A stretch of 64,000 bases of DNA from contig JAFXXK010000016.1 in assembly GCA_017542305.1 (NCBI GenBank), positions 1-64,000 on the forward strand, written 5' to 3'. The notes below the pieces were generated by a model, which saw only the letters and a program-made list of their open reading frames with translations, had not been told where the DNA came from and did not search any database. Within the stretch, counting starts at the first letter, position 1. Every line of letters starts with the position of its first letter. Below, piece by piece: positions 23,048 to 46,104 of this stretch. The position numbers were made by a program, and so were the translations under genes. The DNA comes from a bacterium (GTDB taxonomy: Bacteria; Cyanobacteriota; Vampirovibrionia; Gastranaerophilales; Gastranaerophilaceae).

Positions 23048-23818
23048 TTAATTACATTTTTTCTTCGGTCCGTTAAGTTGAAGTCCTGAACATTTTAAGT
23101 ATTCAAAATTTTCCTGCTGAAGCACCCACGCAGCACAACCTATACCCTGACCGTTCGGATTACAGTCAGTATCAAAAAGACGTTCTGTTCCTTCTATTCC
23201 GGTAGGTAGTACCCTGTCATTAACGACAACAAATTCAAATAAATCTTTACCCCACATATTAGGAGGATTTTCTCCGTTTACATCATAAAAAATTGCAGAT
23301 AATAAACTTGGATTCACCCTCCTAAACCATATACATGATCCGTCATTTAGTAATACTCTGTATGCGGCAGTACCGCCATAATTATAATTTGTTGCATTAG
23401 ACCCTGATAAATATTTATAAGTTCCGCTGTTAACACAACCAGGTTTATCCGTGCCACAGTCTTTTGATATATGTAAATACGGAACAAATACTGCGGCAAT
23501 TTCTTGTGCGGCTTCTGCATTATGAGCTTGAGTATTTCCTAGTTTAATTTCATCCAGTGCTTTGTTCATCAGGTATGCCTGTTGGAGGGTTGAATACATC
23601 TTTTTTAATTTTGTTATGGTCGCTTTATCATGATAATTTTGAATAAGAGTAGGTAATGTCAAAGCTGCAACAACACCGATAATACCGAGGGTAATTAAAA
23701 CTTCGGCGAGAGTGAAGGCAGCTTTCTTTTTGCCCTCTCCTAGGGGTGAGGGTAGAAAATCAATTTGAGCACTGCGAAAATTAGATTTTCGGGAGGGGGT
23801 TGTACATATTGTTTTCAT
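23048..23818 (-). CDS. type IV prepilin-like (pseudopilin) protein
   Basis: Exported pilin-like protein processed by prepilin peptidase. From the ATG at 23818 (AGGAG 4 nt upstream) it has 256 residues with a 34-residue leader. The cleavage/methylation segment KKKAAFTLAEVLITLGIIG has Ala in place of the usual Gly at -1, Phe at +1 and Glu at +5, followed by a hydrophobic helix (GVVAALTLPTLIQNY). The C-terminal domain holds Cys pairs (CGTDKPGC and the final KCSGL...KKKCN). The frame stays open upstream through a G tract to 24022, so a much longer protein is possible (see 23819-24026). Role in a type IV pilus or secretion pseudopilus is inferred. Confidence 0.75.
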   Translation of the reverse strand: MKTICTTPSRKSNFRSAQIDFLPSPLGEGKKKAAFTLAEVLITLGIIGVVAALTLPTLIQNYHDKATITKLKKMYSTLQQAYLMNKALDEIKLGNTQAHNAEAAQEIAAVFVPYLHISKDCGTDKPGCVNSGTYKYLSGSNATNYNYGGTAAYRVLLNDGSCIWFRRVNPSLLSAIFYDVNGENPPNMWGKDLFEFVVVNDRVLPTGIEGTERLFDTDCNPNGQGIGCAAWVLQQENFEYLKCSGLQLNGPKKKCN

Positions 23819-23928
23819 GAAACTCCTGCGAGCGAAGCTTATAATGTCGTGGCTCAGCCACCCCCCTCTTAGATTTCTAAGTTCGCTATCGCTCACTAAG
23901 AAATCTTGTTCTCCCCCTTGGAGAGAAC
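23733..23928 (-). repeat. series of five short palindromes inside the prepilin leader region
   Basis: Inverted repeats at 23733-23752 (CCCTC with GAGGG and CCTAGG core), 23775-23791 (CGAAAAT-tag-ATTTTCG), 23849-23861 (GTGGCT-c-AGCCAC), 23871-23906 (AGATTTCT...AGAAATCT) and 23908-23928 (GTTCTC...GAGAAC). All lie in the open prepilin frame. The last is shared with the 45.3 kb prepilin locus; the first four have no counterpart there. Confidence 0.7.
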
Positions 23929-24026
23929 TTGTTATTGTATTCTGCGAAGCAGTATCAAAACCCTCGAAACGCTTGCTATGAGAGGCTGCCCCCCCCCCTA
24001 AATGCCTTAAATGCAGATGTAGTCAT
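23819..24026 (-). other. out-of-frame upstream start and G tract of the prepilin locus
   Basis: ATG at 24026 (minus strand) has GGAGG 9 nt upstream and a TTGACA/CATAAT promoter. Nine codons later comes a run of 10 G (23998-23989). As given, this frame stops after 16 codons at TAG. The prepilin frame is open from 24022 down to 23048 and contains no ATG, GTG or TTG before 23896. With 9 or 12 G the ATG at 24026 would be fused to the prepilin, giving a 103-residue leader (9 G). Confidence 0.65.
23903..23946 (-). repeat. 44-bp module shared with the 45.3 kb prepilin locus
   Basis: The minus-strand sequence differs from 45386-45429 at 2 of 44 positions. In the prepilin frame it encodes SQNTI(T/I)SS(L/R)QGGEQD at both loci and contains a 9-bp hairpin with loop AAG. 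Confidence 0.9.
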
Positions 24027-45258: not shown

Positions 45259-45286
45259 TTGCATAATCTTTAAAATATGCTATAAT
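45259..45286 (+). promoter_or_regulatory. promoter of the second G-tract prepilin locus
   Basis: TTGCAT (45259-45264), 16 bp, TATAAT (45281-45286) with TGC directly before the -10. GGAGG at 45298-45302 lies 8 nt before the ATG at 45311. Confidence 0.7.
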
Positions 45287-45310
45287 ATATATAACACGGA
45301 GGATAAGGCT

Positions 45311-46104
45311 ATGATAGGATTTTCGCACAGGGGGGGGGGGTAAAACTCAACCGCAGCAATGGTTTTGAGCATTTTAACCCTACGTCGCAGAATACAATAA
45401 TAAGTTCTCGCCAAGGGGGAGAACAAGATAAAAAGAAAGCTGCATTTACGCTTGCGGAGGTGCTAATCACCCTCGGTATTATCGGTATTGTTGCGGCACT
45501 GACAATGCCTGCATTACTACTGAATTTTGAGAAAAAGACGGCAGCTACAAAAGCTAAAAAGGTGTATTCCGAATTACTCCAAGCTATTGAACTTTCAGAA
45601 AGTCATAACGGGGAACTGAAAGAATGGACATTTCCCGAAGCAGCTTCCATCGAAAATACAAGAAATTTTGTCGATGAATATATAAAACCTTATTTTACAG
45701 ACTTGAAAGAATGCTCAACCGGATCTGATCGCAAATGCGGAGCAAGCGTAAGTGGAAACGGTGTAAATTATATTGTACCAAACGGAACAGGAATTGCTAT
45801 AGTAGCACTACCGAATCATAATTTATATATTTTGACGGATGTTAACGGAGCTGACGGGAAACAACATCAGGGACAAGACCGTTTTTACTTTGATACAAAT
45901 AATAGTACCAAAACCTTAAAACCATTTGGCTGGAAAGATGATGTTACTGTCAACGATGTTTTAAACGGTTATAACCATAATGGTGAACAAGTAGCGTGTA
46001 AGAAATCACGATCCGAAAACAACGAATCAGAACTGTACCGACACGGCTGCACTCTGCTCCTTATGCTGAAGAATTGGGAAATCGACAGCGAATACCCGTG
46101 GTAA
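45311..46104 (+). CDS. prepilin-like protein, start separated from body by an out-of-frame G tract
   Basis: The body (45421-46104) encodes KKKAAFTLAEVLITLGIIG, a hydrophobic helix and a C-terminal domain with Cys residues and a CTLLLMLKNWEIDSEYPW end. The only well-placed start is the ATG at 45311 (GGAGG 8 nt upstream). Six codons later comes a run of 11 G (45330-45340), and as given this frame ends at TAA (45341). The prepilin frame is open from 45307 but has no ATG, GTG or TTG before the GTG at 45460, which lies inside the methylation motif and would destroy it. With 9 or 12 G the ATG gives an intact prepilin with a leader of about 44 residues (9 G). OFF phase variant, pseudogene or homopolymer error are the choices; I favour the first. 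Confidence 0.7.
45330..45340 (+). repeat. run of 11 G inside the prepilin leader
   Basis: Mononucleotide tract between the start codon and the prepilin body. Its codon phase (A-GG GGG GGG) is the same as that of the 10-G run at 23989-23998. Confidence 0.9.
45386..45429 (+). repeat. 44-bp module shared with the 23.9 kb prepilin locus
   Basis: Differs from the minus strand of 23903-23946 at 2 of 44 positions. It encodes SQNTIISSRQGGEQD in the prepilin frame and leads directly into KKKAAF, whereas the other copy is followed by about 62 extra codons. Confidence 0.9.

Follow-up and report, generated by a model that had tools for sequence, protein, structure and literature searches.

The window analysed here, a stretch of 64,000 nucleotides of DNA from a member of the Gastranaerophilaceae, contains a prepilin gene (45259-46104) in which a run of G residues lies between the start codon and the prepilin body and, as assembled, leaves the two out of frame. 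Is this gene a reversible switch, a gene expressed through steady slippage, a damaged gene, or an error of assembly? The evidence below indicates that it is very probably one contingency locus of a genome-wide prepilin repertoire that is phase variable through slipped-strand changes in G tracts, and we regard the phase-variation reading as well supported, not proven.

A G tract separates the start codon of a prepilin gene from its body

An earlier reading of the DNA, made without database searches (the sequence-only reading), had described a promoter, GGAGG, ATG at 45311, six codons, 11 G residues and then TAA, and all of these are present to the base (Table 1). A consensus promoter scan of the locus listed other hexamer pairs; we consider the TTGCAT/TATAAT hexamers credible because paralogous cassettes contain TTGACA-N16-CATAAT, i.e. 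the same spacing between the -35 and -10 elements, and because the Shine-Dalgarno sequence (SD) likewise recurs in them. The pilin frame runs without a stop from 45307 up to a TAA at 46102-46104, and the earliest ATG, GTG or TTG within it is a GTG at 45460, 3' of FTLAEV, in agreement with the claim that no such codon precedes the methylation motif. ATG 45311 and the pilin frame are joined only at tract lengths that are a multiple of three (9 or 12 G), and translations of tract-length variants agree with the read-through into the prepilin that had been predicted for these lengths. Specifically, the predicted product with 12 G has 264 residues and begins MIGFSHRGGGVKLNRSNGFEHFNPTSQNTIISSRQGGEQDKKKAAFTLAEV; with 10 or 11 G it has 18 or 10 residues, respectively. 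The leader had been put at 44 residues, which is its length with 9 G but not with 12 G (45 residues). We do not attribute the G11 tract to chance, since about 0.02 tracts of at least 11 G would be expected in this genome (given its size and a GC content of about 36%, both strands counted) and five are present.

Table 1 Features of the prepilin switch region and of a second tract prepilin in the window
Feature	Position	Strand	Basis or remark
Promoter, TTGCAT (-35) and TATAAT (-10), 16-nt spacer	45259-45264 and 45281-45286	+	Sequence; spacing as in paralogous cassettes
Shine-Dalgarno sequence GGAGG	45298-45302	+	Sequence; conserved before paralogous starts
ATG (45311) and start of the leader (M I G F S H plus one base)	45311-45329	+	Sequence
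G11 tract	45330-45340	+	Off as assembled; a change of +1 or -2 would bring it into frame (12 or 9 G)
TAA that ends the ATG frame at 11 G	45341-45343	+	Sequence
Leader 3' of the tract, read in the pilin frame, VKLNRSNGFEHFNPTSQNTIISSRQGGEQDKKKAA	45341-45444	+	No start codon of its own
Palindromic repeat within the leader, GTTCTCGCCAAGGGGGAGAAC	45404-45424	+	Also in paralogue leaders
Prepilin body with stop codon; contains the FTLAEV methylation motif, an N-terminal hydrophobic helix and a globular domain that is variable	45445-46104	+	Pfam, TIGR02532, AlphaFold
Second tract prepilin (L039); C10 on the + strand at 23989-23998	23048-24026	-	Same cassette; in frame at 9 G; assembled off

The encoded protein scores above the cut-offs of both Pfam N_methyl (26.4 bits against 21.2) and TIGR02532 (20 against 16.3), and thus carries a class III signal with an N-terminal methylation motif. 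An AlphaFold model of the mature protein (pLDDT 89.6) has a long helix at residues 4-56 and a beta-rich C-terminal domain. In a profile search of the PDB, the matches to pilins and pseudopilins (best E 1.6e-5) were confined to the N-terminal part. A fold search against solved structures returned nothing at E 0.001 or better, with the PAK pilin 1oqw, at rank 2, as the best of the weak pilin matches (E 0.24, prob 0.66); since the pilin matches are weak throughout, the globular part appears divergent. The genome has one match to prepilin peptidase (PF01478) and five matches over the cut-off to PF00437 (T2SSE-family, type II/IV secretion ATPases).

The tract cassette recurs in the source genome

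The genome contains 13 distinct G tracts of at least 8 nt, ten of which lie in a cassette composed of promoter, SD, ATG, leader and tract. Eight of these ten precede an intact prepilin paralogue (on contigs C3, C5, C14, C16, C17 and C21, and two on C26), and the other two are cut off by contig ends (the end of C10 and the start of C15). All eight intact tract prepilins are in frame only at 9 or 12 G (0 mod 3), and all eight are assembled off, five with 10 G and three with 11 G, such that five need one G fewer and three one more. The sequence-only reading recognized the layout correctly at a single locus and missed its scale, the gene being one of many, among them the prepilin in the same window whose tract lies at 23989-23998. 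The leader of that second gene holds two palindromic repeats, and the prepilin at 45259-46104 shares a repeat containing AACAAGAT with the paralogues L037, L039 and L045.

Two further paralogues, L052 (GGAGGGGATG) and L036 (GGGATGGGGG), have the cassette with an interrupted tract and are in frame from the cassette ATG, so a frame that begins at this ATG and crosses the tract is the coding arrangement; judged from their sequences, they look like natural locked-on versions. Other paralogues have short, ordinary leaders, with a median of 8 residues for those that have no tract.

G tracts accompany prepilins across the family

Named relatives place the family of the source genome (f1) in the Candidatus Gastranaerophilales/Melainabacteria, which bears out the earlier assignment to a gut relative of the Cyanobacteria. 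A search of genome contigs with the single protein found no relatives; an alignment-based search did find them. Prepilin candidates and G tracts of at least 9 nt correlate in number across 34 f1 genomes (Spearman rho 0.88). The maximum per genome is in G011 (170 prepilin candidates, 128 such tracts), and prepilin-poor genomes of the same genus (G002, G005 and G007-G009) have 0 or 1 tract each. In about 400 kb examined of another genome, G033, a prepilin follows 32 of the 38 tracts of at least 8 nt. No tract was visible in the prepilins sampled from G021 (0 of 8) or from G025 (0 of 10), in the latter case in part because its contigs break off within leaders.

The closest relative of the window prepilin is a gene in G012 with 60% identity, the same layout and a tract of 10 G, and it too is off. 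Comparison of 3.7 kb around this gene with the neighbours of the window prepilin gave no synteny and no tblastn hits, and we therefore describe it as the closest relative and not as a positional orthologue. Orthologues with a start codon of their own directly beside the motif, the pattern that the sequence-only reading had named as speaking against it, are not the rule: in all 107 sampled tract prepilins the tract follows a start codon backed by an SD and precedes the body, and an SD-backed ATG lies between tract and motif in only 10 of them.

Most tract prepilins are assembled in an off state

The frame statistics cover 35 assemblies, which together supplied 107 distinct tract prepilins, relatives and paralogues being pooled; the sample was gathered by similarity and not at random. 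Only 13 of the 107 are in frame, where one third would be expected; of the others, 58 are one G short and 36 have one G too many. This deficit of on states has p=9e-7 over all 107 genes and a median p=0.003 when one gene is drawn per assembly, the latter being the safer figure because paralogues are not independent. On and off lengths therefore both occur at like loci (13 on and 94 off, with 0 of 8 on in the source genome). The shortest tract has 8 nt and the longest 15, and 10 is the most usual length (64 of 107). The in-frame length differs between genomes: it is 9 or 12 in G000, where the assembled lengths are 10 or 11; 11 in G033, where all tracts have 10 or 11 G and 26 of 32 have 10; and 11 in G024, where 4 of 4 tracts have 12. 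Such a frame, placed one step off the common length, would, we infer, keep all but a few of the many copies off at any one time.

The leader is kept open in the pilin frame

Of 112 prepilins with a tract of at least 9 nt and an SD-backed ATG, 101 have a spacer between tract and pilin that is free of stops in the pilin frame. Spacers are about 20 to 776 nt long; of the 65 that reach at least 100 nt, 54 stay open in that frame, compared with 1 and 0 in the other two frames. Spacers often carry palindromic repeats that are read in frame, and in the off frames a stop occurs at a median of 5 codons past the tract. The codons of the G033 leaders lack a third-position bias, so what appears to be kept is an open frame and not a peptide, and we make no claim of conserved leader peptides for that genome. 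An open frame kept without a conserved peptide fits a leader that is cut off.

In the leaders of L187, L088 and L254 an incomplete further copy of the prepilin motif (AAFTLAEGAT or AAFTLVEGAT) precedes the real one, which suggests that leaders may arise when pilin genes duplicate or recombine with one another.

Alternatives to a phase-variable switch

Most loci being off by one, and the near uniformity of the lengths in G033, would fit programmed slippage, in which RNA polymerase or the ribosome slips steadily on the G run to give a low, constant amount of product from a tract whose length is not meant to change; the narrow range in G033 could equally come from a fixed slippage signal of this kind. 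We nonetheless consider programmed slippage unlikely as an explanation, because the shift that is needed goes in both directions, between genomes as well as within the source genome, because 13 loci are already in frame and lengths span 8 to 15, and because locked-on paralogues without a tract exist. Errors of assembly are less likely still. The genomes appear to be metagenome assemblies, one per species, whose consensus tract lengths may hide mixtures, and several contigs end in these leaders, so true in-frame tracts could in principle have been called off by one in a short-read consensus. Such errors, however, would have had to occur in both directions (in the source genome, 10 for 9 and 11 for 12), and on-alleles occur at the same lengths. 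The tracts, cassettes and frames stand even if assembled lengths are wrong.

We give the least credence to the gene being a pseudogene that lost a start codon beside the motif, AAGATAAAAAG resembling a damaged ATGAAAAAG, with the upstream ATG and the G run unrelated to it. The lack of an in-frame start and the short leaders often found in non-tract paralogues would suit such a history, and yet the arrangement of ATG, tract and open leader recurs at 107 loci, and the body is intact and shares its 60% identity with an intact, tract-bearing relative. The idea of a decayed ATG was rejected, as the suspect bases belong to the AACAAGAT-containing repeat shared with paralogues. Phase-variable expression of a pilin-like protein, as the sequence-only reading had proposed, is supported by the paralogues, the relatives and the frame statistics, all of which fit translational phase variation.

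A model for a phase-variable prepilin repertoire

In the model that we favor for the phase-variable prepilins, replication slippage in vivo would add a base to the G tract or remove one. A ribosome that starts at the ATG would continue across the tract and into the prepilin only at a length of the in-frame class (9 or 12 G for the window gene, 11 for G033), and would otherwise stop within a few codons. We expect the prepilin peptidase to cut away the leader that precedes FTLAEV, so that this leader would act as a spacer that carries the switch and accommodates palindromic insertions as well as changes of the tract by three bases; the mature proteins would presumably be assembled into pili. As the common length (10-11 G) is an off length, only a few pilins would be on per cell, and each cell lineage could turn pilins on and off at random, with variation of the surface as the likely purpose. 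More broadly, we think it probable, with less assurance than for the window gene itself, that the Gastranaerophilaceae hold one of the largest known single-family repeat-switched repertoires, of tens to more than 100 pilins, each switched by its own G or C tract within an expendable leader, and with frames set against the usual length so that pilins are off by default and appear in rare random combinations.

The proposed mechanism is not new, and Campylobacter, Helicobacter and Neisseria provide its classic examples (PMC8437040, PMC2823697, PMC3745409); the present case differs in its lineage, in the focus of the tracts on a single pilin family, in copy number, in the off-centred frame, and in a leader that carries both switch and repeats. 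C. jejuni has 12-29 poly-G tracts per genome that mediate translational phase variation (PMC8437040), and H. canadensis has 29 coding regions with such tracts (PMC2823697). In Campylobacter and Helicobacter the tracts lie in mixed genes, mainly those for surface sugar synthesis, whereas in the Gastranaerophilales, a lineage related to the Cyanobacteria, they are concentrated on one pilin family and number up to 128 (of at least 9 nt) per genome. The repeats of the Neisseria opa genes sit in the part that encodes the signal peptide. As in opa, each copy of a paralogous surface-protein family here has its own repeat switch inside a cleaved leader, the cleavage being predicted in our case. There are about 11 phase-variable opa copies (PMC3745409). 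Unlike opa, the prepilins have mononucleotide G or C tracts, prepilin leaders that contain palindromic repeats, and several times more copies, which are mostly off by consensus. Rickettsia palindromic elements are inserted in frame in protein-coding genes. The repeats described here are likewise palindromic and in frame within coding genes, but they lie in a leader that is expected to be cut off, and the likeness is one of layout.

We found no report of phase variation in the Gastranaerophilales in the open-access literature, and open-access papers on the group that concern pili or pilin describe no such repertoire, as judged mainly from their titles and abstracts. In the meningococcus the whole predicted phase-variable set comprises 115 genes (PMC5084427). 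If our reading is true, an uncultured gut lineage next to the Cyanobacteria varies its pili at a scale that rivals this set, within one protein family. It could also explain Gastranaerophilales prepilins that seem frameshifted or start-less in gene calls.

Other tracts

Some prepilins have a C tract in place of the G tract (with a leader such as MLNREDLRVCPPPPRK), namely L099, L110 and L113 in G033 and L194, L200, L213, L222 and others. In G033 the bases flanking the C tract match, though modestly, the G-tract core in reverse complement, which would fit an inversion of the core.

Two contigs filed as viral in IMG/VR (L254 and L255) carry tract prepilins of this pilin family and may be host DNA or prophage flanks; a search of viral contigs with the leader DNA pattern gave no match.

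Not every tract is linked to a pilin, some lying within or before other genes. An 11-G tract (L002, G000:C10:65612-65622) lies in an untranslated region about 100-200 nt upstream of an RTX-like protein with GGKGNDTI repeats and is possibly a transcriptional switch of another surface protein. An 8-G tract (L061, G000:C4:53578-53585) lies in the N-terminal part of a large autotransporter-like protein that bears a signal peptide, and an in-frame 12-G tract (L078, G013:C5), a candidate switch, lies within an acyltransferase-like membrane protein.
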